From Diprion similis (Eukaryota; Arthropoda; Insecta; Hymenoptera; Diprionidae), in NCBI RefSeq assembly GCF_021155765.1, contig NC_060107.1, forward strand, positions 2,090,501 through 2,154,500: a stretch of DNA of 64,000 nucleotides. The letters are read 5' to 3'. Below are positions 25,967-61,376 of this stretch, piece by piece (position 1 is the stretch's first letter; every line of letters starts with the position of its first letter). The position numbers and the translations under genes were made by a program. The notes under the pieces are model-generated. The model was not told the origin of the DNA. It saw only the letters and a list, made by a program, of their open reading frames with translations, and ran no database searches.

Positions 25967-27842
<1,876 letters not shown>

Positions 27843-28185: not shown

Positions 28186-30512
28186 CTCAAAAAATCCAAA
28201 GGGGTTAGCCTTCCTTTTTTGCGATTTTCAGAGCTCGGAAACTTTTTGTCTCAGAATCGATTTGCAGGACGCTTTTCCCACTATTTGGACCCTCAGGAAT
28301 GCGAAAATGTCCTCAAAAAGATCGTGGAATCAATAGCAGAGAAATGACGAAGAAAATTTCTCATTTTTCGGCTGTAACTTTCGATTCGTTGCTCGCAGCG
28401 TATTCGGACTGCGCTCAGTCGATTCCTCTCGAAAAATTACGTCGATATAGGGCATCATAGAATTGATTCAACCATTCTCCAAAATCGGCCAAATTTCGAC
28501 TAAAAAAATCCAAAGGGGTTAGCCTTCCTTTTTTGCGATTTTCAGAGCTCGGAAACTTTTTGTCTCAGAATCGTTTTGCAGGACGCTTTTCCCACTATTT
28601 GGACCCTCAGGAATGCGAAAATGTCCTCAAAAAGACCGTGGAATCAATAGCAGAGAAATGACGAAGGAAATTTCTCATTTTTCGGCTGTAACTTTCGATT
28701 CGTTGCTCGCAGCGTATTCGGACTGCGCTCAGTCGATTCCTCTCGAAAAATTACGTCGATATAGGGCATCATAGAATTGATTCAACCATTCTCCAAAATC
28801 GGCCAAATTTCGACTGAAAAAATCCGAAGGGGTTAGCCTTCCTTTTTTGCGAATTTCAGAGCTCGGAAACTTTTTGTCTCAGAATCGTTTTGCAGGACGC
28901 TTTTCCCACTATTTGGACCCTCAGGAATGCGAAAATGTCCTCAAAAAGATCGTGGAATCAATAGCAGAGAAATGACGAAGGAAATTTCTCATTTTTCGGC
29001 TGTAACTTTCGATTCGTTGCTCGCAGCGTATTCGGACTGCGCTCAGTCGATTCCTCTCGAAAAATTACGTCGATATAGGGCATCATAGAATTGATTCAAC
29101 CATTCTCCAAAATCGGCCAAATTTCGACTGAAAAAATCCGAAGGGGTTAGCCTTCCTTTTTTGCGAATTTCAGAGCTCGGAAACTTTTTGTCTCAGAATC
29201 GTTTTGCAGGACGCTTTTCCCACTATTTGGACCCTCAGGAATGCGAAAATGTCCTCAAAAAGATCGTGGAATCAATAGCAGAGAAATGACGAAGGAAATT
29301 TCTCATTTTTCGGCTGTAACTTTCGATTCGTTGCTCGCAGCGTATTCGGACTGCGCTCAGTCGATTCCTCTCGAAAAATTACGTCGATATAGGGCATCAT
29401 AGAATTGATTCAACCATTCTCCAAAATCGGCCAAATTTCGACTGAAAAAACCCAAAGGGGTTAGCCTTCCTTTTTTGCGATTTTCAGAGCTCGGAAACTT
29501 TTTGTCTCAGAATCGTTTTGCAGGACGCTTTTCCCACTATTTGGACCCTCAGGAATGCGAAAATGTCCTCAAAAAGATCGTGGAATCAATAGCAGAGAAA
29601 TGACGAAGGAAATTTCTCATTTTTCGGCTGTAACTTTCGATTCGTTGCTCGCAGCGTATTCGGACTGCGCTCAGTCGATTCCTCTCGAAAAATTACGTCG
29701 ATATAGGGCATCATAGAATTGATTCAACCGTTCTCCAAAATCAGCCAAATTTCGACTGAAAAAATCCAAAGGGGTTAGCCTTCCTTTTTTGCAAATTTCA
29801 GAGCTCGGAAACTTTTTGTCTCAGAATCGTTTTGCAGGACGCTTTTCCCACTATTTGGACCCTCAGGAATGCGAAAATGTCCTCAAAAAGACCGTGGAAT
29901 CAATAGCAGAGAAATGACGAGGGAAATTTCTCATTTTTCGGCTGTAACTTTCGATTCGTTGCTCGCAGCGTATTCGGACTGCGCTCAGTCGATTCCTCTC
30001 GAAAAATTACGTCGATATAGGGCATCATAGAATTGATTCAACCATTCTCCAAAATCAGCCAAATTTCGACTGAAAAAATCCAAAGGGGTTAGCCTTCCTT
30101 TTTTGCGAATTTCAGAGCTCGGAAACTTTTTGTCTCAGAATCGTTTTGCAGGACGCTTTTCCCACTATTTGGACCCTCAGGAATGCGAAAATGTCCTCAA
30201 TAAGATCGTGGAATCAATAGCAGAGAAATGACGAAGAAAATTTCTCATTTTTCGGCTGTAACTTTCGATTCGTTGCTCGCAGCGTATTCGGACTGCGCTC
30301 AGTCGATTCCTCTCGAAAAATTACGTCGATATAGGGCATCATAGAATTGATTCAACCATTCTCCAAAATCGGCCAAATTTCGACTAAAAAAATCCAAAGG
30401 GGTTAGCCTTCCTTTTTTGCGATTTTCAGAGCTCGGAAACTTTTTGTCTCAGAATCGTTTTGCAGGACGCTTTTCCCACTATTTGGACCCTCAGGAATGC
30501 GAAAATGTCCTC

Positions 30513-33338
30513 AATAAGATCGTGGAATCAATAGCAGAGAAATGACGAAGAAAATTTCTCATTTTTCGGCTGTAACTTTCGATTCGTTGCTCGCAGCGTA
30601 TTCGGACTGCGCTCAGTCGATTCCTCTCGAAAAATTACGTCGATATAGGGCATCATAGAATTGATTCAACCATTCTCCAAAATCGGCCAAATTTCGACTA
30701 AAAAAATCCAAAGGGGTTAGCCTTCCTTTTTTGCGATTTTCAGAGCTCGGAAACTTTTTGTCTCAGAATCGTTTTGCAGGACGCTTTTCCCACTATTTGG
30801 ACCCTCAGGAATGCGAAAATGTCCTCAAAAAGATCGTGGAATCAATAGCAGAGAAATGACGAAGAAAATTTCTCATTTTTCGGCTGTAACTTTCGATTCG
30901 TTGCTCGCAGCGTATTCGGACTGCGCTCAGTCGATTCTTCTCGAAAAGATACGTCGATATAGGGCATCATAGAACTGATTCAACCATTCTCCAAAATCGG
31001 CCAAATTTCGACTAAAAAAATCCAAAGGGGTTAGCCTTCCTTTTTTGCGATTTTCAGAGCTCGGAAACTTTTTGTCTCAGAATCGTTTTGCAGGACGCTT
31101 TTCCCACTATTTGGACCCTCAGGAATGCGAAAATGTCCTCAAAAAGATCGTGGAATCAATAGCAGAGAAATGACGAAGGAAATTTTCCATTTTTCGGCTG
31201 TAACTTTCGATTCGTTGCTCGCAGCGTATTCGGACTGCGCTCAGTCGATTCCTCTCGAAAAATTACGTCGATATAGGGCATCATAGAATTGATTCAACCA
31301 TTCTCCAAAATCGGCCAAATTTCGACTAAAAAAATCCAAAGGGGTTAGCCTTCCTTTTTTGCGATTTTCAGAGCTCGGAAACTTTTTGTCTCAGAATCGT
31401 TTTGCAGGACGCTTTTCCCACTATTTGGACCCTCAGGAATGCGAAAATGTCCTCAATAAGATCGTGGAATCAATAGCAGAGAAATGACGAAGAAAATTTC
31501 TCATTTTTCGGCTGTAACTTTCGATTCGTTGCTCGCAGCGTATTCGGACTGCGCTCAGTCGATTCCTCTCGAAAAATTACGTCGATATAGGGCATCATAG
31601 AATTGATTCAACCATTCTCCAAAATCGGCCAAATTTCGACTAAAAAAATCCAAAGGGGTTAGCCTTCCTTTTTTGCGATTTTCAGAGCTCGGAAACTTTT
31701 TGTCTCAGAATCGTTTTGCAGGACGCTTTTCCCACTATTTGGACCCTCAGGAATGCGAAAATGTCCTCAAAAAGATCGTGGAATCAATAGCAGAGAAATG
31801 ACGAAGAAAATTTCTCATTTTTCGGCTGTAACTTTCGATTCGTTGCTCGCAGCGTATTCGGACTGCGCTCAGTCGATTCTTCTCGAAAAGATACGTCGAT
31901 ATAGGGCATCATAGAACTGATTCAACCATTCTCCAAAATCGGCCAAATTTCGACTAAAAAAATCCAAAGGGGTTAGCCTTCCTTTTTTGCGATTTTCAGA
32001 GCTCGGAAACTTTTTGTCTCAGAATCGTTTTGCAGGACGCTTTTCCCACTATTTGGACCCTCAGGAATGCGAAAATGTCCTCAAAAAGATCGTGGAATCA
32101 ATAGCAGAGAAATGACGAAGGAAATTTTCCATTTTTCGGCTGTAACTTTCGATTCGTTGCTCGCAGCGTATTCGGACTGCGCTCAGTCGATTCCTCTCGA
32201 AAAATTACGTCGATATAGGGCATCATAGAATTGATTCAACCATTCTCCAAAATCGGCCAAATTTCGACTAAAAAAATCCAAAGGGGTTAGCCTTCCTTTT
32301 TTGCGATTTTCAGAGCTCGGAAACTTTTTGTCTCAGAATCGTTTTGCAGGACGCTTTTCCCACTATTTGGACCCTCAGGAATGCGAAAATGTCCTCAATA
32401 AGATCGTGGAATCAATAGCAGAGAAATGACGAAGAAAATTTCTCATTTTTCGGCTGTAACTTTCGATTCGTTGCTCGCAGCGTATTCGGACTGCGCTCAG
32501 TCGATTCCTCTCGAAAAATTACGTCGATATAGGGCATCATAGAATTGATTCAACCATTCTCCAAAATCGGCCAAATTTCGACTAAAAAAATCCAAAGGGG
32601 TTAGCCTTCCTTTTTTGCGATTTTCAGAGCTCGGAAACTTTTTGTCTCAGAATCGTTTTGCAGGACGCTTTTCCCACTATTTGGACCCTCAGGAATGCGA
32701 AAATGTCCTCAAAAAGATCGTGGAATCAATAGCAGAGAAATGACGAAGAAAATTTCTCATTTTTCGGCTGTAACTTTCGATTCGTTGCTCGCAGCGTATT
32801 CGGACTGCGCTCAGTCGATTCTTCTCGAAAAGATACGTCGATATAGGGCATCATAGAACTGATTCAACCATTCTCCAAAATCGGCCAAATTTCGACTAAA
32901 AAAATCCAAAGGGGTTAGCCTTCCTTTTTTGCGATTTTCAGAGCTCGGAAACTTTTTGTCTCAGAATCGTTTTGCAGGACGCTTTTCCCACTATTTGGAC
33001 CCTCAGGAATGCGAAAATGTCCTCAAAAAGATCGTGGAATCAATAGCAGAGAAATGACGAAGGAAATTTTCCATTTTTCGGCTGTAACTTTCGATTCGTT
33101 GCTCGCAGCGTATTCGGACTGCGCTCAGTCGATTCCTCTCGAAAAATTACGTCGATATAGGGCATCATAGAATTGATTCAACCATTCTCCAAAATCGGCC
33201 AAATTTCGACTAAAAAAATCCAAAGGGGTTAGCCTTCCTTTTTTGCGATTTTCAGAGCTCGGAAACTTTTTGTCTCAGAATCGTTTTGCAGGACGCTTTT
33301 CCCACTATTTGGACCCTCAGGAATGCGAAAATGTCCTC
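30513..33338. repeat. trimeric higher-order repeat, 942 bp x 3
   Basis: Inside the satellite, an AATAAG monomer, a TTCTTCTCGAAAAGAT monomer and a GGAAATTTTCCATT monomer recur as a unit. AATAAG marks lie at 30513, 31455 and 32397; the TTCTTCTC marks at 30936, 31878 and 32820. Both series are spaced exactly 942 bases, that is 3 x 314. Confidence 0.9.
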
Positions 33339-36300
33339 AAAAAGATCGTGGAATCAATAGCAGAGAAATGACGAAGAAAATTTCTCATTTTTCGGCTGTA
33401 ACTTTCGATTCGTTGCTCGCAGCGTATTCGGACTGCGCTCAGTCGATTCCTCTCGAAAAATTACGTCGATATAGGGCATCATAGAATTGATTCAACCATT
33501 CTCCAAAATCGGCCAAATTTCGACTAAAAAAATCCAAAGGGGTTAGCCTTCCTTTTTTGCGATTTTCAGAGCTCGGAAACTTTTTGTCTCAGAATCGTTT
33601 TGCAGGACGCTTTTCCCACTATTTGGACCCTCAGGAATGCGAAAATGTCCTCAAAAAGATCGTGGAATCAATAGCAGAGAAATGACGAAGGAAATTTTTC
33701 ATTTTTCGGCTGTAACTTTCGATTCGTTGCTCGCAGCGTATTCGGACTGCGCTCAGTCGATTCCTCTCGAAAAATTACGTCGATATAGGGCATCATAGAA
33801 TTGATTCAACCATTCTCCAAAATCAGCCAAATTTCGACTGAAAAAATCCAAAGGGGTTAGCCTTCCTTTTTTGCGAATTTCAGAGCTCGGAAACTTTTTG
33901 TCTCAGAATCGTTTTGCAGGACGCTTTTCCCACTATTTGGACCCTCAGGAATGCGAAAATGTCCTCAAAAAGATCGTGGAATCAATAGCAGAGAAATGAC
34001 GAGGGAAATTTCTCATTTTTCGGCTGTAACTTTCGATTCGTTGCTCGCAGCGTATTCGGACTGCGCTCAGTCGATTCCTCTCGAAAAATTACGTCGATAT
34101 AGGGCATCATAGAATTGATTCAACCATTCTCCAAAATCAGCCAAATTTCGACTGAAAAAATCCAGAGGGGTTAGCCTTCCTTTTTTGCGAATTTCAGAGC
34201 TCGGAAACTTTTTGTCTCAGAATCGTTTTGCAGGACGCTTTTCCCACTATTTGGACCCTCAGGAATGCGAAAATGTCCTCAAAAAGATCGTGGAATCAAT
34301 AGCAGAGAAATGACGAAGGAAATTTCTCATTTTTCGGCTGTAACTTTCGATTCGTTGCTCGCAGCGTATTCGGACTGCGCTCAGTCGATTCCTCTCGAAA
34401 AATTACGTCGATATGGGGCATCATAGAATTGATTCAACCATTCTCCAAAATCGGCCAAATTTCGACTGAAAAAATCCAAAGGGGTTAGCCTTCCTTTTTT
34501 GCGAATTTCAGAGCTCGGAAACTTTTTGTCTCAGAATCGTTTTGCAGGACGCTTTTCCCACTATTTGGACCCTCAGGAATGCGAAAATGTCCTCAAAAAG
34601 ATCGTGGAATCAATAGCAGAGAAATGACGAGGGAAATTTCTCATTTTTCGGCTGTAACTTTCGATTCGTTGCTCGCAGCGTATTCGGACTGCGCTCAGTC
34701 GATTCCTCTCGAAAAATTACGTCGATATAGGGCATCATAGAATTGATTCAACCATTCTCCAAAATCAGCCAAATTTCGACTGAAAAAATCCAGAGGGGTT
34801 AGCCTTCCTTTTTTGCGATTTTCAGAGCTCGGAAACTTTTTGTCTCAGAATCGTTTTGCAGGACGCTTTTCCCACTATTTGGACCCTCAGGAATGCGAAA
34901 ATGTCCTCAAAAAGATCGTGGAATCAATAGCAGAGAAATGACGAAGGAAATTTCTCATTTTTCGGCTGTAACTTTCGATTCGTTGCTCGCAGCGTATTCG
35001 GACTGCGCTCAGTCGATTCCTCTCGAAAAATTACGTCGATATAGGGCATCATAGAATTGATTCAACCATTCTCCAAAATCGGCCAAATTTCGACTGAAAA
35101 AATCCAAAGGGGTTAGCCTTCCTTTTTTGCGATTTTCAGAGCTCGGAAACTTTTTGTCTCAGAATCGTTTTGCAGGACGCTTTTCCCACTATTTGGACCC
35201 TCAGGAATGCGAAAATGTCCTCAAAAAGATCGTGGAATCAATAGCAGAGAAATGACGAAGGAAATTTCTCATTTTTCGGCTGTAACTTTCGATTCGTTGC
35301 TCGCAGCGTATTCGGACTGCGCTCAGTCGATTCCTCTCGAAAAATTACGTCGATATAGGGCATCATAGAATTGATTCAACCATTCTCCAAAATCAGCCAA
35401 ATTTCGACTGAAAAAATCCAAAGGGGTTAGCCTTCCTTTTTTGCGATTTTCAGAGCTCGGAAACTTTTTGTCTCAGAATCGTTTTGCAGGACGCTTTTCC
35501 CACTATTTGGACCCTCAGGAATGCGAAAATGTCCTCAAAAAGATCGTGGAATCAATAGCAGAGAAATGACGAAGGAAATTTCTCATTTTTCGGCTGTAAC
35601 TTTCGATTCGTTGCTCGCAGCGTATTCGGACTGCGCTCAGTCGATTCCTCTCGAAAAATTACGTCGATATAGGGCATCATAGAATTGATTCAACCATTCT
35701 CCAAAATCGGCCAAATTTCGACTGAAAAAATCCGAAGGGGTTAGCCTTCCTTTTTTGCGAATTTCAGAGCTCGGAAACTTTTTGTCTCAGAATCGTTTTG
35801 CAGGACGCTTTTCCCACTATTTGGACCCTCAGGAATGCGAAAATGTCCTCAAAAAGATCGTGGAATCAATAGCAGAGAAATGACGAAGGAAATTTCTCAT
35901 TTTTCGGCTGTAACTTTCGATTCGTTGCTCGCAGCGTATTCGGACTGCGCTCAGTCGATTCTTCTCGAAAAGATACGTCGATATAGGGCATCATAGAACT
36001 GATTCAACCATTCTCCAAAATCGGCCAAATTTCGACTAAAAAAATCCAAAGGGGTTAGCCTTCCTTTTTTGCGATTTTCAGAGCTCGGAAACTTTTTGTC
36101 TCAGAATCGTTTTGCAGGACGCTTTTCCCACTATTTGGACCCTCAGGAATGCGAAAATGTCCTCAAAAAGATCGTGGAATCAATAGCAGAGAAATGACGA
36201 AGGAAATTTTCCATTTTTCGGCTGTAACTTTCGATTCGTTGCTCGCAGCGTATTCGGACTGCGCTCAGTCGATTCCTCTCGAAAAATTACGTCGATATAG

Positions 36301-38990
36301 GGCATCATAGAATTGATTCAACCATTCTCCAAAATCGGCCAAATTTCGACTAAAAAAATCCAAAGGGGTTAGCCTTCCTTTTTTGCGATTTTCAGAGCTC
36401 GGAAACTTTTTGTCTCAGAATCGTTTTGCAGGACGCTTTTCCCACTATTTGGACCCTCAGGAATGCGAAAATGTCCTCAAAAAGATCGTGGAATCAATAG
36501 CAGAGAAATGACGAAGAAAATTTCTCATTTTTCGGCTGTAACTTTCGATTCGTTGCTCGCAGCGTATTCGGACTGCGCTCAGTCGATTCCTCTCGAAAAA
36601 TTACGTCGATATAGGGCATCATAGAATTGATTCAACCATTCTCCAAAATCGGCCAAATTTCGACTAAAAAAATCCAAAGGGGTTAGCCTTCCTTTTTTGC
36701 GATTTTCAGAGCTCGGAAACTTTTTGTCTCAGAATCGTTTTGCAGGACGCTTTTCCCACTATTTGGACCCTCAGGAATGCGAAAATGTCCTCAAAAAGAT
36801 CGTGGAATCAATAGCAGAGAAATGACGAAGGAAATTTTTCATTTTTCGGCTGTAACTTTCGATTCGTTGCTCGCAGCGTATTCGGACTGCGCTCAGTCGA
36901 TTCCTCTCGAAAAATTACGTCGATATAGGGCATCATAGAATTGATTCAACCATTCTCCAAAATCAGCCAAATTTCGACTGAAAAAATCCAAAGGGGTTAG
37001 CCTTCCTTTTTTGCGAATTTCAGAGCTCGGAAACTTTTTGTCTCAGAATCGTTTTGCAGGACGCTTTTCCCACTATTTGGACCCTCAGGAATGCGAAAAT
37101 GTCCTCAAAAAGATCGTGGAATCAATAGCAGAGAAATGACGAGGGAAATTTCTCATTTTTCGGCTGTAACTTTCGATTCGTTGCTCGCAGCGTATTCGGA
37201 CTGCGCTCAGTCGATTCCTCTCGAAAAATTACGTCGATATAGGGCATCATAGAATTGATTCAACCATTCTCCAAAATCAGCCAAATTTCGACTGAAAAAA
37301 TCCAGAGGGGTTAGCCTTCCTTTTTTGCGAATTTCAGAGCTCGGAAACTTTTTGTCTCAGAATCGTTTTGCAGGACGCTTTTCCCACTATTTGGACCCTC
37401 AGGAATGCGAAAATGTCCTCAAAAAGATCGTGGAATCAATAGCAGAGAAATGACGAAGGAAATTTCTCATTTTTCGGCTGTAACTTTCGATTCGTTGCTC
37501 GCAGCGTATTCGGACTGCGCTCAGTCGATTCCTCTCGAAAAATTACGTCGATATGGGGCATCATAGAATTGATTCAACCATTCTCCAAAATCGGCCAAAT
37601 TTCGACTGAAAAAATCCAAAGGGGTTAGCCTTCCTTTTTTGCGAATTTCAGAGCTCGGAAACTTTTTGTCTCAGAATCGTTTTGCAGGACGCTTTTCCCA
37701 CTATTTGGACCCTCAGGAATGCGAAAATGTCCTCAAAAAGATCGTGGAATCAATAGCAGAGAAATGACGAGGGAAATTTCTCATTTTTCGGCTGTAACTT
37801 TCGATTCGTTGCTCGCAGCGTATTCGGACTGCGCTCAGTCGATTCCTCTCGAAAAATTACGTCGATATAGGGCATCATAGAATTGATTCAACCATTCTCC
37901 AAAATCAGCCAAATTTCGACTGAAAAAATCCAGAGGGGTTAGCCTTCCTTTTTTGCGATTTTCAGAGCTCGGAAACTTTTTGTCTCAGAATCGTTTTGCA
38001 GGACGCTTTTCCCACTATTTGGACCCTCAGGAATGCGAAAATGTCCTCAAAAAGATCGTGGAATCAATAGCAGAGAAATGACGAAGGAAATTTCTCATTT
38101 TTCGGCTGTAACTTTCGATTCGTTGCTCGCAGCGTATTCGGACTGCGCTCAGTCGATTCCTCTCGAAAAATTACGTCGATATAGGGCATCATAGAATTGA
38201 TTCAACCATTCTCCAAAATCGGCCAAATTTCGACTGAAAAAATCCAAAGGGGTTAGCCTTCCTTTTTTGCGATTTTCAGAGCTCGGAAACTTTTTGTCTC
38301 AGAATCGTTTTGCAGGACGCTTTTCCCACTATTTGGACCCTCAGGAATGCGAAAATGTCCTCAAAAAGATCGTGGAATCAATAGCAGAGAAATGACGAAG
38401 GAAATTTCTCATTTTTCGGCTGTAACTTTCGATTCGTTGCTCGCAGCGTATTCGGACTGCGCTCAGTCGATTCCTCTCGAAAAATTACGTCGATATAGGG
38501 CATCATAGAATTGATTCAACCATTCTCCAAAATCAGCCAAATTTCGACTGAAAAAATCCAAAGGGGTTAGCCTTCCTTTTTTGCGATTTTCAGAGCTCGG
38601 AAACTTTTTGTCTCAGAATCGTTTTGCAGGACGCTTTTCCCACTATTTGGACCCTCAGGAATGCGAAAATGTCCTCAAAAAGATCGTGGAATCAATAGCA
38701 GAGAAATGACGAAGGAAATTTCTCATTTTTCGGCTGTAACTTTCGATTCGTTGCTCGCAGCGTATTCGGACTGCGCTCAGTCGATTCCTCTCGAAAAATT
38801 ACGTCGATATAGGGCATCATAGAATTGATTCAACCATTCTCCAAAATCGGCCAAATTTCGACTGAAAAAATCCGAAGGGGTTAGCCTTCCTTTTTTGCGA
38901 ATTTCAGAGCTCGGAAACTTTTTGTCTCAGAATCGTTTTGCAGGACGCTTTTCCCACTATTTGGACCCTCAGGAATGCGAAAATGTCCTC
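32700..38990. repeat. ten-monomer block duplicated in tandem, 3140 bp x 2
   Basis: Private variants repeat at exactly 3140 bases (10 x 314): TTCTTCTCGAAAAGAT at 32820 and 35960, GGAAATTTTCCATT at about 33062 and 36202, the ATATGGGGC variant at 34411 and 37551, GAAATTTTTC at 33691 and 36831. The marks 300 bases outside (AATAAG at 32397 against AAAAAG at 35537, and 35960 against 39100) no longer match, so boundaries are approximate. Confidence 0.88.
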
Positions 38991-41900
38991 AAAAAGATCG
39001 TGGAATCAATAGCAGAGAAATGACGAAGGAAATTTCTCATTTTTCGGCTGTAACTTTCGATTCGTTGCTCGCAGCGTATTCGGACTGCGCTCAGTCGATT
39101 CCTCTCGAAAAATTACGTCGATATAGGGCATCATAGAATTGATTCAACCATTCTCCAAAATCGGCCAAATTTCGACTGAAAAAACCCAAAGGGGTTAGCC
39201 TTCCTTTTTTGCGATTTTCAGAGCTCGGAAACTTTTTGTCTCAGAATCGTTTTGCAGGACGCTTTTCCCACTATTTGGACCCTCAGGAATGCGAAAATGT
39301 CCTCAAAAAGATCGTGGAATCAATAGCAGAGAAATGACGAAGGAAATTTCTCATTTTTCGGCTGTAACTTTCGATTCGTTGCTCGCAGCGTATTCGGACT
39401 GCGCTCAGTCGATTCCTCTCGAAAAATTACGTCGATATAGGGCATCATAGAATTGATTCAACCGTTCTCCAAAATCAGCCAAATTTCGACTGAAAAAATC
39501 CAAAGGGGTTAGCCTTCCTTTTTTGCGAATTTCAGAGCTCGGAAACTTTTTGTCTCAGAATCGTTTTGCAGGACGCTTTTCCCACTATTTGGACCCTCAG
39601 GAATGCGAAAATGTCCTCAAAAAGACCGTGGAATCAATAGCAGAGAAATGACGAGGGAAATTTCTCATTTTTCGGCTGTAACTTTCGATTCGTTGCTCGC
39701 AGCGTATTCGGACTGCGCTCAGTCGATTCCTCTCGAAAAATTACGTCGATATAGGGCATCATAGAATTGATTCAACCATTCTCCAAAATCAGCCAAATTT
39801 CGACTGAAAAAATCCAAAGGGGTTAGCCTTCCGTTTTTGCGAATTTCAGAGCTCGGAAACTTTTTGTCTCAGAATCGTTTTGCAGGACGCTTTTCCCACT
39901 ATTTGGACCCTCAGGAATGCGAAAATGTCCTCAAAAAGATCGTGGAATCAATAGCAGAGAAATGACGAAGAAAATTTCTCATTTTTCGGCTGTAACTTTC
40001 GATTCGTTGCTCGCAGCGTATTCGGACTGCGCTCAGTCGATTCCTCTCGAAAAATTACGTCGATATAGGGCATCATAGAATTGATTCAACCATTCTCCAA
40101 AATCGGCCAAATTTCGACTAAAAAAATCCAAAGGGGTTAGCCTTCCTTTTTTGCGATTTTCAGAGCTCGGAAACTTTTTGTCTCAGAATCGTTTTGCAGG
40201 ACGCTTTTCCCACTATTTGGACCCTCAGGAATGCGAAAATGTCCTCAATAAGATCGTGGAATCAATAGCAGAGAAATGACGAAGAAAATTTCTCATTTTT
40301 CGGCTGTAACTTTCGATTCGTTGCTCGCAGCGTATTCGGACTGCGCTCAGTCGATTCCTCTCGAAAAATTACGTCGATATAGGGCATCATAGAATTGATT
40401 CAACCATTCTCCAAAATCGGCCAAATTTCGACTAAAAAAATCCAAAGGGGTTAGCCTTCCTTTTTTGCGATTTTCAGAGCTCGGAAACTTTTTGTCTCAG
40501 AATCGTTTTGCAGGACGCTTTTCCCACTATTTGGACCCTCAGGAATGCGAAAATGTCCTCAAAAAGATCGTGGAATCAATAGCAGAGGAATGACGAAGAA
40601 AATTTCTCATTTTTCGGCTGTAACTTTCGATTCGTTGCTCGCAGCGTATTCGGACTGCGCTCAGTCGATTCTTCTCGAAAAATTACGTCGATATAGGGCA
40701 TCATAGAACTGATTCAACCATTCTCCAAAATCGGCCAAATTTCGACTAAAAAAATCCAAAGGGGTTAGCCTTCCTTTTTTGCGATTTTCAGAGCTCGGAA
40801 ACTTTTTGTCTCAGAATCGTTTTGCAGGACGCTTTTCCCACTATTTGGACCCTCAGGAATGCGAAAATGTCCTCAAAAAGATCGTGGAATCAATAGCAGA
40901 GAAATGACGAGGGAAATTTCTCATTTTTCGGCTGTAACTTTCGATTCGTTGCTCGCAGCGTATTCGGACTGCGCTCAGTCGATTCCTCTCGAAAAATTAC
41001 GTCGATATAGGGCATCATAGAATTGATTCAACCATTCTCCAAAATCGGCCAAATTCCGACTGAAAAAATCCAAAGGGGTTAGCCTTCCTTTTTTGCGATT
41101 TTCAGAGCTCGGAAACTTTTTGTCTCAGAATCGTTTTGCAGGACGCTTCTCCCACTATTTGGACCCTCAGGAATGCGAAAATGTCCTCAAAAAGATCGTT
41201 GAATCAATAGCAGAGAAATGACGAAGGAAATTTCTCATTTTTCGGCTGTAACTTTCGATTCGTTGCTCGCAGCGTATTCGGACTGCGCTCAGTCGATTCC
41301 TCTCGAAAAATTACGTCGATATAGGGCATCATAGAATTGATTCAACCATTCTCCAAAATCGGCCAAATTTCGACTGAAAAAATCCAAAGGGGTTAGCCTT
41401 CCTTTTTTGCGAATTTCAGAGCTCGGAAACTTTTTGTCTCAGAATCGTTTTGCAGGACGCTTTTCCCACTATTTGGACCCTCAGGAATGCGAAAATGTCC
41501 TCAAAAAGATCGTGGAATCAATAGCAGAGAAATGACGAAGGAAATTTCTCATTTTTCGGCTGTAACTTTCGATTCGTTGCTCGCAGCGTATTCGGACTGC
41601 GCTCAGTCGATTCCTCTCGAAAAATTACGTCGATATAGGGCATCATAGAATTGATTCAACCATTCTCCAAAATCGGCCAAATTTCGACTGAAAAAATCCA
41701 AAGGGGTTAGCCTTCCTTTTTTCGAATTTCAGAGCTCGGAAACTTTTTGTCTCAGAATCGTTTTGCAGGACGCTTTTCCCACTATTTGGACCCTCAGGAA
41801 TGCGAAAATGTCCTCAAAAAGATCGTGGAATCAATAGCAGAGAAATGACGAGGGAAATTTCTCATTTTTCGGCTGTAACTTTCGATTCGTTGCTCGCAGC

Positions 41901-44900
41901 GTATTCGGACTGCGCTCAGTCGATTCCTCTCGAAAAATTACGTCGATATAGGGCATCATAGAATTGATTCAACCATTCTCCAAAATCGGCCAAATTTCGA
42001 CTGAAAAAATCCAGAGGGGTTAGCCTTCCTTTTTTGCGAATTTCAGAGCTCGGAAACTTTTTGTCTCAGAATCGTTTTGCAGGACGCTTTTCCCACTATT
42101 TGGACCCTCAGGAATGCGAAAATGTCCTCAAAAAGATCGTGGAATCAATAGCAGAGAAATGACGAAGGAAATTTCTCATTTTTCGGCTGTAACTTTCGAT
42201 TCGTTGCTCGCAGCGTATTCGGACTGCGCTCAGTCGATTCCTCTCGAAAAATTACGTCGATATAGGGCATCATAGAATTGATTCAACCATTCTCCAAAAT
42301 CGGCCAAATTTCGACTGAAAAAATCCAAAGGGGTTAGCCTTCCTTTTTTGCGATTTTCAGAGCTCGGAAACTTTTTGTCTCAGAATCGTTTTGCAGGACG
42401 CTTTTCCCACTATTTGGACCCTCAGGAATGCGAAAATGTCCTCAAAAAGATCGTGGAATCAATAGCAGAGAAATGACGAAGGAAATTTCTCATTTTTCGG
42501 CTGTAACTTTCGATTCGTTGCTCGCAGCGTATTCGGACTGCGCTCAGTCGATTCCTCTCGAAAAATTACGTCGATATAGGGCATCATAGAATTGATTCAA
42601 CCATTCTCCAAAATCAGCCGAATTTCGACTGAAAAAATCCAAAGGGGTTAGCCTTCCTTTTTTGCGATTTTCAGAGCTCGGAAACTTTTTGTCTCAGAAT
42701 CGTTTTGCAGGACGCTTTTCCCACTATTTGGACCCTCAGGAATGCGAAAATGTCCTCAATAAGATCGTGGAATCAATAGCAGAGAAATGACGAAGAAAAT
42801 TTCTCATTTTTCGGCTGTAACTTTCGATTCGTTGCTCGCAGCGTATTCGGACTGCGCTCAGTCGATTCCTCTCGAAAAATTACGTCGATATAGGGCATCA
42901 TAGAATTGATTCAACCATTCTCCAAAATCGGCCAAATTTCGACTAAAAAAATCCAAAGGGGTTAGCCTTCCTTTTTTGCGAATTTCAGAGCTCGGAAACT
43001 TTTTGTCTCAGAATCGTTTTGCAGGACGCTTTTCCCACTATTTGGACCCTCAGGAATGCGAAAATGTCCTCAAAAAGATCGTGGAATCAATAGCAGAGAA
43101 ATGACGAAGGAAATTTCTCATTTTTCGGCTGTAACTTTCGATTCGTTGCTCGCAGCGTATTCGGACTGCGCTCAGTCGATTCCTCTCGAAAAATTACGTC
43201 GATATAGGGCATCATAGAATTGATTCAACCATTCTCCAAAATCGGCCAAATTTCGACTGAAAAAATCCAAAGGGGTTAGCCTTCCTTTTTTGCGATTTTC
43301 AGAGCTCGGAAACTTTTTGTCTCAGAATCGTTTTGCAGGACGCTTTTCCCACTATTTGGACCCTCAGGAATGCGAAAATGTCCTCAAAAAGATCGTGGAA
43401 TCAATAGCAGAGAAATGACGAAGGAAATTTCTCATTTTTCGGCTGTAACTTTCGATTCGTTGCTCGCAGCGTATTCGGACTGCGCTCAGTCGATTCCTCT
43501 CGAAAAATTACGTCGATATAGGGCATCATAGAATTGATTCAACCATTCTCCAAAATCAGCCAAATTTCGACTGAAAAAATCCAAAGGGGTTAGCCTTCCT
43601 TTTTTGCGATTTTCAGAGCTCGGAAACTTTTTGTCTCAGAATCGTTTTGCAGGACGCTTTTCCCACTATTTGGACCCTCAGGAATGCGAAAATGTCCTCA
43701 AAAAGATCGTGGAATCAATAGCAGAGAAATGACGAAGGAAATTTCTCATTTTTCGGCTGTAACTTTCGATTCGTTGCTCGCAGCGTATTCGGACTGCGCT
43801 CAGTCGATTCCTCTCGAAAAATTACGTCGATATAGGGCATCATAGAATTGATTCAACCATTCTCCAAAATCGGCCAAATTTCGACTGAAAAAATCCGAAG
43901 GGGTTAGCCTTCCTTTTTTGCGAATTTCAGAGCTCGGAAACTTTTTGTCTCAGAATCGTTTTGCAGGACGCTTTTCCCACTATTTGGACCCTCAGGAATG
44001 CGAAAATGTCCTCAAAAAGATCGTGGAATCAATAGCAGAGAAATGACGAAGGAAATTTCTCATTTTTCGGCTGTAACTTTCGATTCGTTGCTCGCAGCGT
44101 ATTCGGACTGCGCTCAGTCGATTCCTCTCGAAAAATTACGTCGATATAGGGCATCATAGAATTGATTCAACCATTCTCCAAAATCGGCCAAATTTCGACT
44201 GAAAAAACCCAAAGGGGTTAGCCTTCCTTTTTTGCGATTTTCAGAGCTCGGAAACTTTTTGTCTCAGAATCGTTTTGCAGGACGCTTTTCCCACTATTTG
44301 GACCCTCAGGAATGCGAAAATGTCCTCAAAAAGATCGTGGAATCAATAGCAGAGAAATGACGAAGGAAATTTCTCATTTTTCGGCTGTAACTTTCGATTC
44401 GTTGCTCGCAGCGTATTCGGACTGCGCTCAGTCGATTCCTCTCGAAAAATTACGTCGATATAGGGCATCATAGAATTGATTCAACCATTCTCCAAAATCG
44501 GCCAAATTTCGACTGAAAAAATCCGAAGGGGTTAGCCTTCCTTTTTTGCGAATTTCAGAGCTCGGAAACTTTTTGTCTCAGAATCGTTTTGCAGGACGCT
44601 TTTCCCACTATTTGGACCCTCAGGAATGCGAAAATGTCCTCAAAAAGATCGTGGAATCAATAGCAGAGAAATGACGAAGGAAATTTCTCATTTTTCGGCT
44701 GTAACTTTCGATTCGTTGCTCGCAGCGTATTCGGACTGCGCTCAGTCGATTCCTCTCGAAAAATTACGTCGATATAGGGCATCATAGAATTGATTCAACC
44801 ATTCTCCAAAATCGGCCAAATTTCGACTGAAAAAACCCAAAGGGGTTAGCCTTCCTTTTTTGCGATTTTCAGAGCTCGGAAACTTTTTGTCTCAGAATCG

Positions 44901-47900
44901 TTTTGCAGGACGCTTTTCCCACTATTTGGACCCTCAGGAATGCGAAAATGTCCTCAAAAAGATCGTGGAATCAATAGCAGAGAAATGACGAAGGAAATTT
45001 CTCATTTTTCGGCTGTAACTTTCGATTCGTTGCTCGCAGCGTATTCGGACTGCGCTCAGTCGATTCCTCTCGAAAAATTACGTCGATATAGGGCATCATA
45101 GAATTGATTCAACCGTTCTCCAAAATCAGCCAAATTTCGACTGAAAAAATCCAAAGGGGTTAGCCTTCCTTTTTTGCGAATTTCAGAGCTCGGAAACTTT
45201 TTGTCTCAGAATCGTTTTGCAGGACGCTTTTCCCACTATTTGGACCCTCAGGAATGCGAAAATGTCCTCAAAAAGACCGTGGAATCAATAGCAGAGAAAT
45301 GACGAGGGAAATTTCTCATTTTTCGGCTGTAACTTTCGATTCGTTGCTCGCAGCGTATTCGGACTGCGCTCAGTCGATTCCTCTCGAAAAATTACGTCGA
45401 TATAGGGCATCATAGAATTGATTCAACCATTCTCCAAAATCAGCCGAATTTCGACTGAAAAAATCCAAAGGGGTTAGCCTTCCTTTTTTGCGAATTTCAG
45501 AGCTCGGAAACTTTTTGTCTCAGAATCGTTTTGCAGGACGCTTTTCCCACTATTTGGACCCTCAGGAATGCGAAAATGTCCTCAAAAAGATCGTGGAATC
45601 AATAGCAGAGAAATGACGAAGAAAATTTCTCATTTTTCGGCTGTAACTTTCGATTCGTTGCTCGCAGCGTATTCGGACTGCGCTCAGTCGATTCCTCTCG
45701 AAAAATTACGTCGATATAGGGCATCATAGAATTGATTCAACCATTCTCCAAAATCGGCCAAATTTCGACTAAAAAAATCCAAAGGGGTTAGCCTTCCTTT
45801 TTTGCGATTTTCAGAGCTCGGAAACTTTTTGTCTCAGAATCGTTTTGCAGGACGCTTTTCCCACTATTTGGACCCTCAGGAATGCGAAAATGTCCTCAAA
45901 AAGATCGTGGAATCAATAGCAGAGAAATGACGAAGAAAATTTCTCATTTTTCGGCTGTAACTTTCGATTCGTTGCTCGCAGCGTATTCGGACTGCGCTCA
46001 GTCGATTCTTCTCGAAAAATTACGTCGATATAGGGCATCATAGAACTGATTCAACCATTCTCCAAAATCGGCCAAATTTCGACTAAAAAAATCCAAAGGG
46101 GTAAGCCTTCCTTTTTTGCGATTTTCAGAGCTCGGAAACTTTTTGTCTCAGAATCGTTTTGCAGGACGCTTTTCCCACTATTTGGACCCTCAGGAATGCG
46201 AAAATGTCCTCAAAAAGATCTTGGAATCAATAGCAGAGAAATGACGAGGGAAATTTCTCATTTTTCGGCTGTAACTTTCGATTCGTTGCTCGCAGCGTAT
46301 TCGGACTGCGCTCAGTCGATTCCTCTCGAAAAATTACGTCGATATAGGGCATCATAGAATTGATTCAACCATTCTCCAAAATCGGCCAAATTTCGACTGA
46401 AAAAATCCAAAGGGGTTAGCCTTCCTTTTTTGCGATTTTCAGAGCTCGGAAACTTTTTGTCTCAGAATCGTTTTGCAGGACGCTTTTCCCACTATTTGGA
46501 CCCTCAGGAATGCGAAAATGTCCTCAAAAAGATCGTTGAATCAATAGCAGAGAAATGACGAAGGAAATTTCTCATTTTTCGGCTGTAACTTTCGATTCGT
46601 TGCTCGCAGCGTATTCGGACTGCGCTCAGTCGATTCCTCTCGAAAAATTACGTCGATATAGGGCATCATAGAATTGATTCAACCATTCTCCAAAATCGGC
46701 CAAATTTCGACTGAAAAAATCCAAAGGGGTTAGCCTTCCTTTTTTGCGAATTTCAGAGCTCGGAAACTTTTTGTCTCAGAATCGTTTTGCAGGACGCTTT
46801 TCCCACTATTTGGACCCTCAGGAATGCGAAAATGTCCTCAAAAAGATCGTGGAATCAATAGCAGAGAAATGGCGAAGGAAATTTCTCATTTTTCGGCTGT
46901 AACTTTCGATTCGTTGCTCGCAGCGTATTCGGACTGCGCTCAGTCGATTCCTCTCGAAAAATTACGTCGATATAGGGCATCATAGAATTGATTCAACCAT
47001 TCTCCAAAATCGGCCAAATTTCGACTGAAAAAATCCAAAGGGGTTAGCCTTCCTTTTTTGCGAATTTCAGAGCTCGGAAACTTTTTGTCTCAGAATCGTT
47101 TTGCAGGACGCTTTTCCCACTATTTGGACCCTCAGGAATGCGAAAATGTCCTCAAAAAGATCGTGGAATCAATAGCAGAGAAATGACGAGGGAAATTTCT
47201 CATTTTTCGGCTGTAACTTTCGATTCGTTGCTCGCAGCGTATTCGGACTGCGCTCAGTCGATTCCTCTCGAAAAATTACGTCGATATAGGGCATCATAGA
47301 ATTGATTCAACCATTCTCCAAAATCGGCCAAATTTCGACTAAAAAAATCCAAAGGGGTTAGCCTTCCTTTTTTGCGATTTTCAGAGCTCGGAAACTTTTT
47401 GTCTCAGAATCGTTTTGCAGGACGCTTTTCCCACTATTTGGACCCTCAGGAATGCGAAAATGTCCTCAATAAGATCGTGGAATCAATAGCAGAGAAATGA
47501 CGAAGAAAATTTCTCATTTTTCGGCTGTAACTTTCGATTCGTTGCTCGCAGCGTATTCGGACTGCGCTCAGTCGATTCCTCTCGAAAAATTACGTCGATA
47601 TAGGGCATCATAGAATTGATTCAACCATTCTCCAAAATCGGCCAAATTTCGACTAAAAAAATCCAAAGGGGTTAGCCTTCCTTTTTTGCGATTTTCAGAG
47701 CTCGGAAACTTTTTGTCTCAGAATCGTTTTGCAGGACGCTTTTCCCACTATTTGGACCCTCAGGAATGCGAAAATGTCCTCAAAAAGATCGTGGAATCAA
47801 TAGCAGAGAAATGACGAAGAAAATTTCTCATTTTTCGGCTGTAACTTTCGATTCGTTGCTCGCAGCGTATTCGGACTGCGCTCAGTCGATTCTTCTCGAA

Positions 47901-50900
47901 AAATTACGTCGATATAGGGCATCATAGAACTGATTCAACCATTCTTCAAAATCGGCCAAATTTCGACTAAAAAAATCCAAAGGGGTTAGCCTTCCTTTTT
48001 TGCGATTTTCAGAGCTCGGAAACTTTTTGTCTCAGAATCGTTTTGCAGGACGCTTTTCCCACTATTTGGACCCTCAGGAATGCGAAAATGTCCTCAAAAA
48101 GATCGTGGAATCAATAGCAGAGAAATGACGAGGGAAATTTCTCATTTTTCGGCTGTAACTTTCGATTCGTTGCTCGCAGCGTATTCGGACTGCGCTCAGT
48201 CGATTCCTCTCGAAAAATTACGTCGATATAGGGCATCATAGAATTGATTCAACCATTCTCCAAAATCGGCCAAATTTCGACTGAAAAAATCCAAAGGGGT
48301 TAGCCTTCCTTTTTTGCGATTTTCAGAGCTCGGAAACTTTTTGTCTCAGAATCGTTTTGCAGGACGCTTTTCCCACTATTTGGACCCTCAGGAATGCGAA
48401 AATGTCCTCAAAAAGATCGTTGAATCAATAGCAGAGAAATGACGAAGGAAATTTCTCATTTTTCGGCTGTAACTTTCGATTCGTTGCTCGCAGCGTATTC
48501 GGACTGCGCTCAGTCGATTCCTCTCGAAAAATTACGTCGATATAGGGCATCATAGAATTGATTCAACCATTCTCCAAAATCGGCCAAATTTCGACTGAAA
48601 AAATCCAAAGGGGTTAGCCTTCCTTTTTTGCGAATTTCAGAGCTCGGAAACTTTTTGTCTCAGAATCGTTTTGCAGGACGCTTTTCCCACTATTTGGACC
48701 CTCAGGAATGCGAAAATGTCCTCAAAAAGATCGTGGAATCAATAGCAGAGAAATGACGAAGGAAATTTCTCATTTTTCGGCTGTAACTTTCGATTCGTTG
48801 CTCGCAGCGTATTCGGACTGCGCTCAGTCGATTCCTCTCGAAAAATTACGTCGATATAGGGCATCATAGAATTGATTCAACCATTCTCCAAAATCGGCCA
48901 AATTTCGACTGAAAAAATCCAAAGGGGTTAGCCTTCCTTTTTTGCGAATTTCAGAGCTCGGAAACTTTTTGTCTCAGAATCGTTTTGCAGGACGCTTTTC
49001 CCACTATTTGGACCCTCAGGAATGCGAAAATGTCCTCAAAAAGATCGTGGAATCAATAGCAGAGAAATGACGAGGGAAATTTCTCATTTTTCGGCTGTAA
49101 CTTTCGATTCGTTGCTCGCAGCGTATTCGGACTGCGCTCAGTCGATTCCTCTCGAAAAATTACGTCGATATAGGGCATCATAGAATTGATTCAACCATTC
49201 TCCAAAATCAGCCAAATTTCGACTGAAAAAATCCAGAGGGGTTAGCCTTCCTTTTTTGCGAATTTCAGAGCTCGGAAACTTTTTGTCTCAGAATCGTTTT
49301 GCAGGACGCTTTTCCCACTATTTGGACCCTCAGGAATGCGAAAATGTCCTCAAAAAGATCGTGGAATCAATAGCAGAGAAATGACGAAGGAAATTTCTCA
49401 TTTTTCGGCTGTAACTTTCGATTCGTTGCTCGCAGCGTATTCGGACTGCGCTCAGTCGATTCCTCTCGAAAAATTACGTCGATATAGGGCATCATAGAAT
49501 TGATTCAACCATTCTCCAAAATCGGCCAAATTTCGACTGAAAAAATCCGAAGGGGTTAGCCTTCCTTTTTTGCGAATTTCAGAGCTCGGAAACTTTTTGT
49601 CTCAGAATCGTTTTGCAGGACGCTTTTCCCACTATTTGGACCCTCAGGAATGCGAAAATGTCCTCAAAAAGATCGTGGAATCAATAGCAGAGAAATGACG
49701 AAGGAAATTTCTCATTTTTCGGCTGTAACTTTCGATTCGTTGCTCGCAGCGTATTCGGACTGCGCTCAGTCGATTCCTCTCGAAAAATTACGTCGATATA
49801 GGGCATCATAGAATTGATTCAACCATTCTCCAAAATCGGCCAAATTTCGACTGAAAAAATCCAAAGGGGTTAGCCTTCTTTTTTTGCGAATTTCAGAGCT
49901 CGGAAACTTTTTGTCTCAGAATCGTTTTGCAGGACGCTTTTCCCACTATTTGGACCCTCAGGAATGCGAAAATGTCCTCAAAAAGATCGTGGAATCAATA
50001 GCAGAGAAATGACGAAGAAAATTTCTCATTTTTCGGCTGTAACTTTCGATTCGTTGCTCGCAGCGTATTCGGACTGCGCTCAGTCGATTCCTCTCGAAAA
50101 ATTACGTCGATATAGGGCATCATAGAATTGATTCAACCATTCTCCAAAATCGGCCAAATTTCGACTGAAAAAATCCAAAGGGGTTAGCCTTCCTTTTTTG
50201 CGAATTTCAGAGCTCGGAAACTTTTTGTCTCAGAATCGTTTTGCAGGACGCTTTTCCCACTATTTGGACCCTCAGGAATGCGAAAATGTCCTCAAAAAGA
50301 TCGTGGAATCAATAGCAGAGAAATGACGAAGGAAATTCCTCATTTTTCGGCTGTAACTTTCGATTCGTTGCTCGCAGCGTATTCGGACTGCGCTCAGTCG
50401 ATTCCTCTCGAAAAATTACGTCGATATAGGGCATCATAGAATTGATTCAACCATTCTCCAAAATCGGCCAAATTTCGACTGAAAAAATCCAAAGGGGTTA
50501 GCCTTCCTTTTTTGCGAATTTCAGAGCTCGGAAACTTTTTGTCTCAGAATCGTTTTGCAGGACGCTTTTCCCACTATTTGGACCCTTAGGAATGCGAAAA
50601 TGTCCTCAAAAAGATCGTGGAATCAATAGCAGAGAAATGACGAAGGAAATTTCTCATTTTTCGGCTGTAACTTTCGATTCGTTGCTCGCAGCGTATTCGG
50701 ACTGCGCTCAGTCGATTCCTCTCGAAAAATTACGTCGATATAGGGCATCATAGAATTGATTCAACCATTCTCCAAAATCGGCCAAATTTCGACTGAAAAA
50801 ATCCAAAGGGGTTAGCCTTCCTTTTTTGCGAATTTCAGAGCTCGGAAACTTTTTGTCTCAGAATCGTTTTGCAGGACGCTTTTCCCACTATTTGGACCCT

Positions 50901-53900
50901 CAGGAATGCGAAAATGTCCTTAAAAAGATCGTGGAATCAATAGCAGAGAAATGACGAAGGAAATTTCTCATTTTTCGGCTGTAACTTTCGATTCGTTGCT
51001 CGCAGCGTATTCGGACTGCGCTCAGTCGATTCCTCTCGAAAAATTACGTCGATATAGGGCATCATAGAATTGATTCAACCATTCTCCAAAATCGGCCAAA
51101 TTTCGACTGAAAAAATCCAAAGGGGTTAGCCTTCCTTTTTTGCGATTTTCAGAGCTCGGAAACTTTTTGTCTCAGAATCGTTTTGCAGGACGCTTTTCCC
51201 ACTATTTGGACCCTCAGGAATGCGAAAATGTCCTCAAAAAGATCGTGGAATCAATAGCAGAGAAATGACGAAGGAAATTTCTCATTTTTCGGCTGTAACT
51301 TTCGATTCGTTGCTCGCAGCGTATTCGGACTGCGCTCAGTCGATTCCTCTCGAAAAATTACGTCGATATAGGGCATCATAGAATTGATTCAACCATTCTC
51401 CAAAATCGGCCAAATTTCGACTGAAAAAATCCAAAGGGGTTAGCCTTCCTTTTTTGCGATTTTCAGAGCTCGGAAACTTTTTGTCTCAGAATCGTTTTGC
51501 AGGACGCTTTCCCACTATTTGGACCCTCAGGAATGCGAAAATGTCCTCAAAAAGATCGTGGAATCAATAGCAGAGAAATGACGAAGGAAATTTCTCATTT
51601 TTCGGCTGTAACTTTCGATTCGTTGCTCGCAGCGTATTCGGACTGCGCTCAGTCGATTCCTCTCGAAAAATTACGTCGATATAGGGCATCATAGAATTGA
51701 TTCAACCGTTCTCCAAAATCAGCCAAATTTCGACTGAAAAAATCCAAAGGGGTTAGCCTTCCTTTTTTGCGAATTTCAGAGCTCGGAAACTTTTTGTCTC
51801 AGAATCGTTTTGCAGGACGCTTTTCCCACTATTTGGACCCTCAGGAATGCGAAAATGTCCTCAAAAAGATCGTGGAATCAATAGCAGAGAAATGACGAAG
51901 GAAATTTCTCATTTTTCGGCTGTAACTTTCGATTCGTTGCTCGCAGCGTATTCGGACTGCGCTCAGTCGATTCCTCTCGAAAAATGACGTCGATATAGGG
52001 CATCATAGAATTGATTTAACCATCCTCCAAAATCGGCCAAATTTCGACTGAAAAAATCCAAAGGGGTTAGCCTTCCTTTTTTGCGAATTTCAGAGCTCGG
52101 AAACTTTTTTGTCTCAGAATCGTTTTGCAGGACGCTTTTCCCACTATTTGGACCCTCAGGAATGCGAAAATGTCCTCAAAAAGATCGTGGAATCAATAGC
52201 AGAGAAATGACGAAGGAAATTTCTCATTTTTCGGCTGTAACTTTCGATTCGTTGCTCGCAGCGTATTCGGACTGCGCTCAGTCGATTCCTCTCGAAAAAT
52301 TACGTCGATATAGGGCATCATAGAATTGATTCAACCATTCTCCAAAATCGGCCGAATTTCGACTGAAAAAATCCAAAGGGGTTAGCCTTCCTTTTTTGCG
52401 AATTTCAGAGCTCGGAAACTTTTTGTCTCAGAATCGTTTTGCAGGACGCTTTTCCCACTATTTGGACCCTCAGGAATGCGAAAATGTCCTCAAAAAGATC
52501 GTGGAATCAATAGCAGAGAAATGACGAAGGAAATTTCTCATTTTTCGGCTGTAACTTTCGATTCGTTGCTCGCAGCGTATTCGGACTGCGCTCAGTCGAT
52601 TCCTCTCGAAAAATTACGTCGATATAGGGCATCATAGAATTGATTCAACCATTCTCCAAAATCGGCCAAATTTCGACTGAAAAAATCCAAAGGGGTTAGC
52701 CTTACTTTTTTGCGAATTTCAGAGCTCGGAAACTTTTTGTCTCAGAATCGTTTTGCAGGACGCTTTTCCCACTATTTGGACCCTCAGGAATGCGAAAATG
52801 TCCTCAAAAAGATCGTGGAATCAATAGCAGAGAAATGACGAAGGAAATTTCTCATTTTTCGGCTGTAACTTTCGATTCGTTGCTCGCAGCGTATTCGGAC
52901 TGCGCTCAGTCGATTCCTCTCGAAAAATTACGTCGATATAGGGCATCATAGAATTGATTCAACCATTCTCCAAAATCGGCCAAATTTCGACTGAAAAAAT
53001 CCAAAGGGGTTAGCCTTCTTTTTTTGCGAATTTCAGAGCTCGGAAACTTTTTGTCTCAGAATCGTTTTGCAGGACGCTTTTCCCACTATTTGGACCCTCA
53101 GGAATGCGAAAATGTCCTCAAAAAGATCGTGGAATCAATAGCAGAGAAATGACGAAGGAAATTTCTCATTTTTCGGCTGTAACTTTCGATTCGTTGCTCG
53201 CAGCGTATTCGGACTGCGCTCAGTCGATTCCTCTCGAAAAATTACGTCGATATAGGGCATCATAGAATTGATTCAACCATTCTCCAAAATCGGCCAAATT
53301 TCGACTGAAAAAATCCAAAGGGGTTAGCCTTCCTTTTTTGCGAATTTCAGAGCTCGGAAACTTTTTGTCTCAGAATCGTTTTGCAGGACGCTTTTCCCAC
53401 TATTTGGACCCTCAGGAATGCGAAAATGTCCTCAAAAAGATCGTGGAATCAATAGCAGAGAAATGACGAAGGAAATTTCTCATTTTTCGGCTGTAACTTT
53501 CGATTCGTTGCTCGCAGCGTATTCGGACTGCGCTCAGTCGATTCCTCTCGAAAAATTACGTCGATATAGGGCATCATAGAATTGATTCAACCATTCTCCA
53601 AAATCGGCCAAATTTCGACTGAAAAAATCCAAAGGGGTTAGCCTTCCTTTTTTGCGAATTTCAGAGCTCGGAAACTTTTTGTCTCAGAATCGTTTTGCAG
53701 GACGCTTTTCCCACTATTTGGACCCTCAGGAATGCGAAAATGTCCTCAAAAAGATCGTGGAATCAATAGCAGAGAAATGACGAAGGAAATTTCTCATTTT
53801 TCGGCTGTAACTTTCGATTCGTTGCTCGCAGCGTATTCGGACTGCGCTCAGTCGATTCCTCTCGAAAAATTACGTCGATATAGGGCATCATAGAATTGAT

Positions 53901-54772
53901 TCAACCATTCTCCAAAATCGGCCAAATTTCGACTGAAAAAATCCAAAGGGGTTAGCCTTCCTTTTTTGCGAATTTCAGAGCTCGGAAACTTTTTGTCTCA
54001 GAATCGTTTTGCAGGACGCTTTTCCCACTATTTGGACCCTCAGGAATGCGAAAATGTCCTCAAAAAGATCGTGGAATCAATAGCAGAGAAATGACGAAGG
54101 AAATTTCTCATTTTTCGGCTGTAACTTTCGATTCGTTGCTCGCAGCGTATTCGGACTGCGCTCAGTCGATTCCTCTCGAAAAATTACGTCGATATAGGGC
54201 ATCATAGAATTGATTCAACCATTCTCCAAAATCGGCCAAATTTCGACTGAAAAAATCCAAAGGGGTTAGCCTTCCTTTTTTGCGAATTTCAGAGCTCGGA
54301 AACTTTTTGTCTCAGAATCGTTTTGCAGGACGCTTTTCCCACTATTTGGACCCTCAGGAATGCGAAAATGTCCTCAAAAAGATCGTGGAATCAATAGCAG
54401 AGAAATGACGAAGGAAATTTCTCATTTTTCGGCTGTAACTTTCGATTCGTTGCTCGCAGCGTATTCGGACTGCGCTCAGTCGATTCCTCTCGAAAAATTA
54501 CGTCGATATAGGGCATCATAGAATTGATTCAACCATTCTCCAAAATCGGCCAAATTTCGACTGAAAAAATCCAAAGGGGTTAGCCTTCCTTTTTTGCGAA
54601 TTTCAGAGCTCGGAAACTTTTTGTCTCAGAATCGTTTTGCAGGACGCTTTTCCCACTATTTGGACCCTCAGGAATGCGAAAATGTCCTCAAAAAGATCGT
54701 GGAATCAATAGCAGAGAAATGACGAATGAAATTTCTCATTTTTCGGCTGTAACTTTCGATTCGTTGCTCGCA

Positions 54773-61345: not shown

Positions 61346-61376
<31 letters not shown>

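Follow-up and report, generated by a model that had tools for sequence, protein, structure and literature searches.

We analyzed a 64,000-nucleotide stretch of the genome of the sawfly Diprion similis (contig NC_060107.1, C3:2090501-2154500; hereafter "the window"), which lies 2.1 Mb inside a chromosome-sized contig and contains a tandem array of 85 units of ~314 bp, spanning positions 28094-54781 (~26.7 kb). This array very probably represents one array of a dispersed satellite family that is interspersed with genes and has a monomer of 300-314 bp. The family is apparently new.

Homogeneity and dispersal of the 314-bp family

Tandem Repeats Finder reported a period of 314, 85.0 copies, and 98% matches over positions 28094-54796. 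Consistently, the spacing between successive anchors was 314 in 80 of 83 intervals, 313 in two, and 315 in one, in agreement with the period of 314 and few single-base indels described in the first-pass annotation; counted as unit lengths with the divergent first unit included (n = 85), 81 units measured 314 bp, three 313 bp, and one 315 bp. Identity at a lag of 314 bases was 0.98-1.0 within the array and ~0.24-0.31 outside, falling to 0.63-0.93 in 1-kb windows that held an indel or an array edge. Mean pairwise identity among the 85 units was 0.985, i.e., we found the long head-to-tail array of near-identical units (85 units, 98.5%) by which satellite DNA is recognized. The monomer (M) corresponds to 2 x 157 bp, and the observed/expected ratio of CpG was 1.44 in the array versus 1.01 and 1.12 in its flanks. 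The first-pass annotation had placed the array at 28186..54772: the array itself was recovered there, and those borders proved slightly tight, with a divergent unit from 28094 on the left and a decayed monomer reaching 55045 on the right.

The 85 units comprise 43 distinct types, and they include exact duplications of blocks of three and of ten units (Table 1). Multi-unit repeats are a trace typical of unequal crossing-over or a similar process, and the exact 3-unit and 10-unit block duplications thus suggest that unequal crossing-over has acted here. Together with the array-specific sequence groups described below, they support, at the level of sequence, the recent homogenization that had been proposed for this array.

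The copy number of the monomer, singled out earlier as a property to be checked across the whole assembly (269,008,206 bases in 60 contigs, with C1-C14 measuring 10.9-28.0 Mb each), proved high. More specifically, a 32-base piece of the monomer matched the genome 9231 times with up to 3 mismatches (4133 forward, 5098 reverse), whereas the reversed control gave 0 matches. This is the high copy number expected of satellite DNA and, at 314 bp per match, corresponds to ~2.9 Mb, about 1.1% of the assembly, a figure in which more divergent copies are not counted. Exact matches to the 32-mer inside the window numbered 61, up to position 54567; because the match places listed omit exact matches of the window array itself, a restriction of exact matches to C3 and C10 was considered and dropped. 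An exact 26-base piece spanning the monomer junction matched 460 times in the genome (112 forward, 348 reverse; control, 0). A 701-base search gave 1763 candidates, and the four of these that were scored were arrays at C3:0.775, C3:1.224, C10:16.55, and C10:17.54 Mb, and most related array pieces on C3 and C10 showed 82-89% identity. We read seven arrays in addition to that of the window, namely these four and those at C10:18.06, C2:12.74, and C2:13.14 Mb. Arrays are therefore present on C3 and C10, with three or more on each, and on C2, with two, all of these contigs being chromosome-sized. The monomer of the arrays measures 314 bp in six of them, including the window array, ~312 bp in C2:12.74, and mostly 304 bp in C2:13.14.

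To relate the arrays to one another, we built a tree from 74 sampled monomers (66 different), of which 67 came from the eight arrays, the window contributing 10, and 7 from loci that carry insert X (see below). Mapping the eight array labels onto this tree required 7 changes, the minimum possible, and a value as low was obtained in 0 of 200 shuffles. Six of the eight arrays formed single groups (bootstrap 100, 100, 99, 98, 94, and 89). Moreover, the trio of C3 arrays formed one group (99/83), the two C2 arrays paired (99/96), and C10:16.55 paired with C10:17.54 (100/97). Units were thus closest to others of their own array, as under concerted evolution, with two exceptions listed below. This grouping indicates that the arrays have mostly been homogenized internally and that nearest relatives tend to share a chromosome.

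The following observations weigh against the picture of a dispersed, internally homogenized family: (i) C2:13.14 and C3:0.775, the two exceptions, did not form single groups on the monomer tree, needing two changes; (ii) C10:18.06 stood apart from the other two C10 arrays; (iii) about 100 of the 9231 match places of the 32-mer were listed, and large blocks of the family may exist elsewhere; and (iv) none of 16 interior samples of 700 bases (9 on C1, 7 on C2) matched the family, a result to be expected if the family occupies ~1% of the genome, the sample being thin.

The arrays are also close to genes. As the first-pass annotation had stated, the window array sits between ordinary genes, with a homologue of PTGES2 (prostaglandin E synthase 2) on its left, a glutathione S-transferase gene on its right, and further gene exons beyond. 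The putative first exon of PTGES2 is 251 bp from the array start. Exons in the wider neighborhood encode an FGGY kinase of the glycerol-kinase type, vigilin KH domains, a dual-specificity phosphatase, IFT122, CCDC167, and a carnitine acyltransferase, and 3 of 10 frames from this neighborhood had no match. Likewise, the C10:18.06 array is flanked by AHSA1 (PF08327, 6.6e-13), ~0.8 kb ahead of where monomer traces begin, and by adrenodoxin (best PDB match 9.8e-15), ~1.2 kb past where they end, and at C3:1.224 an inositol monophosphatase gene (PF00459, 3.2e-37) lies ~0.7 kb from the end of the monomer traces. The frame beside the C10:16.55 array had no Pfam match; it may resemble RNF11. Altogether, a confirmed gene was found within 1.3 kb of three of the four arrays tested (the window, C3:1.22, and C10:18.06), so that arrays near ordinary genes occur on both C3 and C10. 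The genes close on both sides, the block duplications, and the array-specific groups favor, as far as sequence shows, a euchromatic satellite, which was one of the two identities considered for the array in the first-pass annotation.

Table 1. Positions of the array, its edges, and neighboring features in the window
Feature	Position	Strand	Evidence or remark
Exon of PTGES2 homologue	26638..26997	-	PDB 1z9h E=1.3e-21; GST_N_3 1.7e-5
Putative first coding exon of PTGES2	27462..27842	-	Same-strand open frame beside the PTGES2 exon; no Pfam match; assignment inferred
Divergent first unit, 313 bp, left array edge	28094..28406	+	nhmmer score 329.8 bits; following unit, 404.2
Homogeneous tandem array, 84 units of ~314 bp (monomer M, + strand reading)	28407..54781	+	
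Box A (one instance), slowly evolving ~60-bp block over the monomer junction (unit positions 296-314 + 1-40)	28702..28760	+	One 16-column invariant run; lowest within-array polymorphism
3-unit (942-bp) block, three exact copies	30291..33116	+	Lag-3 run, 6 identical units from 30291
10-unit (3140-bp) block, two exact copies (32803-35942 and 35943-39082)	32803..39082	+	Lag-10 run, 10 identical units
Decayed monomer (positions 1-267), right array edge	54782..55045	+	nhmmer E=4.1e-19
Insert X remnant, matching positions 367-504 of the 515-position model	55277..55428	+	nhmmer E=2.9e-20
Glutathione S-transferase exons on the right-hand side of the array	57144..57866	+	GST_N_3 2.3e-13, GST_C_2 5.6e-9

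Other features of the window were as follows. An AT-rich stretch with 26-28% GC occupies positions 60001-62000, between the exons of CCDC167 and carnitine acyltransferase. A coding role of the array was considered and rejected, given that the unit length is not a multiple of three and that stop-free frames extend over at most 107 codons. A scan of the whole window with Rfam yielded no family at the gathering score, and ARAGORN found no tRNA in it.

Insert X and the origin of the arrays

The stretches at array edges that are not monomer resemble one another, and we refer to them as insert X (up to ~510 bp). An X query yielded 367 candidates, and the 40 of them that were scored held 42 matches, distributed over at least nine contigs (C1, C2, C3, C4, C6, C8, C9, C10, and C13). 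All seven arrays that were read to at least one edge carried an X match at an edge: in monomer orientation, it lies at the right edge of the window and C10:18.06 arrays, at the left edge of C2:13.14, C3:0.775, C3:1.224, and C10:16.55, and at both edges of C10:17.54 (for C2:13.14 and C3:0.775 the reading covered a single edge, and for C2:12.74 the interior only). Where this could be seen, the monomer breaks off near position 258-267 ahead of X and restarts near 249-271 behind it, and the monomer ends flanking X, examined for a target-site duplication, overlap by ~10 bases, not cleanly. At the C10 locus of 19.56-19.58 Mb (G000:C10:19558799-19583981), we observed eleven X hits at spacings of 2165, 2479, or 2793 bp; by arithmetic on the hit coordinates, these equal one long monomer of ~595 bp plus 5, 6, or 7 x 314. 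From this we infer a higher-order structure in which an X-bearing long monomer follows every 5-7 plain units. Because of its position at array edges, its dispersal, and this spacing, we regard X as an old companion of the monomer.

We propose the following course of events. An old copy of the monomer, being part of an M-X composite, would have lain 5' of PTGES2, and the plain 314-bp unit would then have been amplified in place by unequal crossing-over or a replication-based process. New arrays would have been seeded mainly along the same chromosome, be it through short-range duplication, excised circles, or a mobile carrier that has since vanished.

The same insert bears on an alternative that we consider possible but unlikely, namely that the arrays are the expanded internal tandem core of a non-autonomous transposon comprising M and X. 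Monomer sequence was present behind X at all 14 loci read (13 of them with the start of a monomer, L053 with nothing but a tail), which speaks for such an element, as do the presence of dispersed X at an edge of every array examined for it, the regular X spacing at C10:19.56 Mb, and the transposon-like TCAST elements of Tribolium, a published parallel (PMC3411249). However, inspection by eye, which was not a systematic search, revealed no ends shared outside the repeats, no termini in inverted orientation, and no target-site duplication. Furthermore, monomer was also detected ahead of X in 5 of the 14 loci, with L055 showing it inverted, and several loci were too short to tell.

A conserved block and the centromere question

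Across the consensus sequences of the eight arrays, 170 of 314 columns were invariant. The longest invariant runs were two of 16 columns, and 107 of 20000 column shuffles produced a run at least as long. Invariance spread as unevenly over 25-column windows came up in 2 of 20000 shuffles. One of these runs falls within box A, the block over the monomer junction listed in Table 1. Polymorphism within arrays was assessed in six of them (79, 20, 13, 30, 16, and 16 units), leaving out end units, units of lengths other than 314, off-register units, and both C2 arrays. In this set, the stretch 303-314 + 1-29 was the least polymorphic, with 4 polymorphic columns where 30-column windows averaged 18, and among 20000 circular shifts, 676 gave a value as low as that of box A. 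In the edge copies found through X, conservation of box A was 0.821, a value biased upward because the X query included the junction. Box A may be a candidate binding site, or it may reflect mutation or conversion; it is the sole hint of function in the array.

The other invariant run, box B (CAAAGGGGTTAGCCTT), was evaluated as a second conserved element. Its invariance between arrays equals that of the run in box A, yet it was not upheld. We do not claim it because (i) three of the eight arrays had been found by a pattern containing box B; (ii) it varies within the window array; and (iii) it is ordinary in the edge copies, scoring 0.744 over the 14 of them (6-14 copies per position) versus 0.708 for the rest of the monomer, which ranks it 147 of 314.

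It is rather improbable that the array is a functional regulatory one, in which box A would bind a sequence-specific protein and act on nearby genes or in chromosome-wide recognition. The invariant run in box A, the minimum of within-array polymorphism at the same place, and the short distance between the array start and the putative first PTGES2 exon are what such a function would be argued from. Nevertheless, the statistics are modest and come from eight and six arrays, box A may simply mutate or recombine differently, and the second invariant run fails in the edge copies. A broader proposal, to which we give slightly less credence still, would take the gene-flanked arrays genome-wide as clusters of binding sites beside genes, each 314-bp unit bearing a constrained protein-binding box of ~60 bp; if true, the box-bearing arrays would have a chromosome-recognition or boundary function, or would present a CENP-B-like box in dispersed arrays. 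We consider the array to be probably without a dedicated function; a change of chromatin near PTGES2 is the most that it may bring about.

That the array is an assembly artefact, falsely expanded or misplaced, is very unlikely: block-identical stretches can come from misassembly, but the 43 unit types among 85 units, the decayed units at the edges, and the existence of a family with several similar arrays all argue against it. We give hardly any credence to a young centromere or pericentromere seed, the other identity raised in the first-pass annotation. A homogeneous satellite with block structure and a monomer of 2 x 157 bp would suit it, but the surroundings of the window array are gene-dense, several arrays occur per chromosome beside genes (three or more on C3 and likewise on C10), and a different satellite of 279 bp holds the starts of C6, C8, C12, and C15.

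A centromeric satellite should form a gene-poor block at one place per chromosome, and the 314-bp arrays read here do not show this distribution. The 279-bp satellite was detected at three of 14 large-contig starts, i.e., those of C6 (L014), C8 (L016), and C12 (L030), where C11-C14 were read with 700 bases only. It was also present within the opening 10 kb of the unplaced contig C15 (125 kb; L027) and, among the 16 interior samples, in a single one, taken at 15.0 Mb on C1 (L040). The 314-bp profile had no match in the loci of the 279-bp satellite. By position only, the latter is possibly (peri)centromeric and is a better centromere candidate than the 314-bp array.

Additional repeats were noted in the course of this work. 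Contigs C1, C2, and C3 open with CCTAA repeats. Repeats common to several contig starts (L009-L012, L015, and L029), which in L009-L011 stand behind CCTAA arrays, are probably subtelomeric. In L045 (C2:7.0 Mb) and L032 (start of C14), we also saw tandem repeats of two other periods, ~191 and ~148 bp.

Relation to known satellites and significance

Published systems offer several points of comparison. In Drosophila, the 1.688 (359-bp) and Rsp-like families are described as satellite arrays that occur in euchromatin close to genes (PMC7642928, PMC7919458), and they resemble the family of the window in having a complex unit of a few hundred bp and in being gene-proximal, a likeness of organization. 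Drosophila satellites account for ~0.07% of the euchromatin of autosomes and for 1% to more than 3.4% of that of the X chromosome (PMC7919458); in the D. similis family, insert X is distributed over at least nine contigs.

TCAST-like elements of Tribolium castaneum comprise monomers near genes on all chromosomes and a composite form in which a non-satellite segment stands between monomer pieces, similar to M-X here (PMC3411249). The euchromatic TCAST tandems reported there reach tetramers (PMC3411249), whereas the window array has 85 units. In addition, the transposon-like TCAST forms are described with long inverted repeats and, in some cases, ACT duplications (PMC3411249); none were seen by eye for M-X, and M and X occur mostly in one orientation, unlike those long inverted repeats. 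With regard to the genus itself, citing papers attribute four transcribed subfamilies of satellite DNA to Diprion pini (Rouleux-Bonnin et al. 1996, via PMC2220036 and PMC13192020). A 14-base core of the D. similis monomer was not found in the literature searched.

Cleanly assembled, the locus in the window exemplifies the spread and homogenization of a satellite in gene-rich DNA, displaying fresh block duplications in mid-array, decayed monomers at the edges, an old insert common to the family, and relatives that often lie on the same chromosome. It also illustrates that a homogeneous array between genes does not by itself imply a centromere seed. Since the arrays stand beside defined genes, they allow the effect of such satellites on neighboring genes to be tested.

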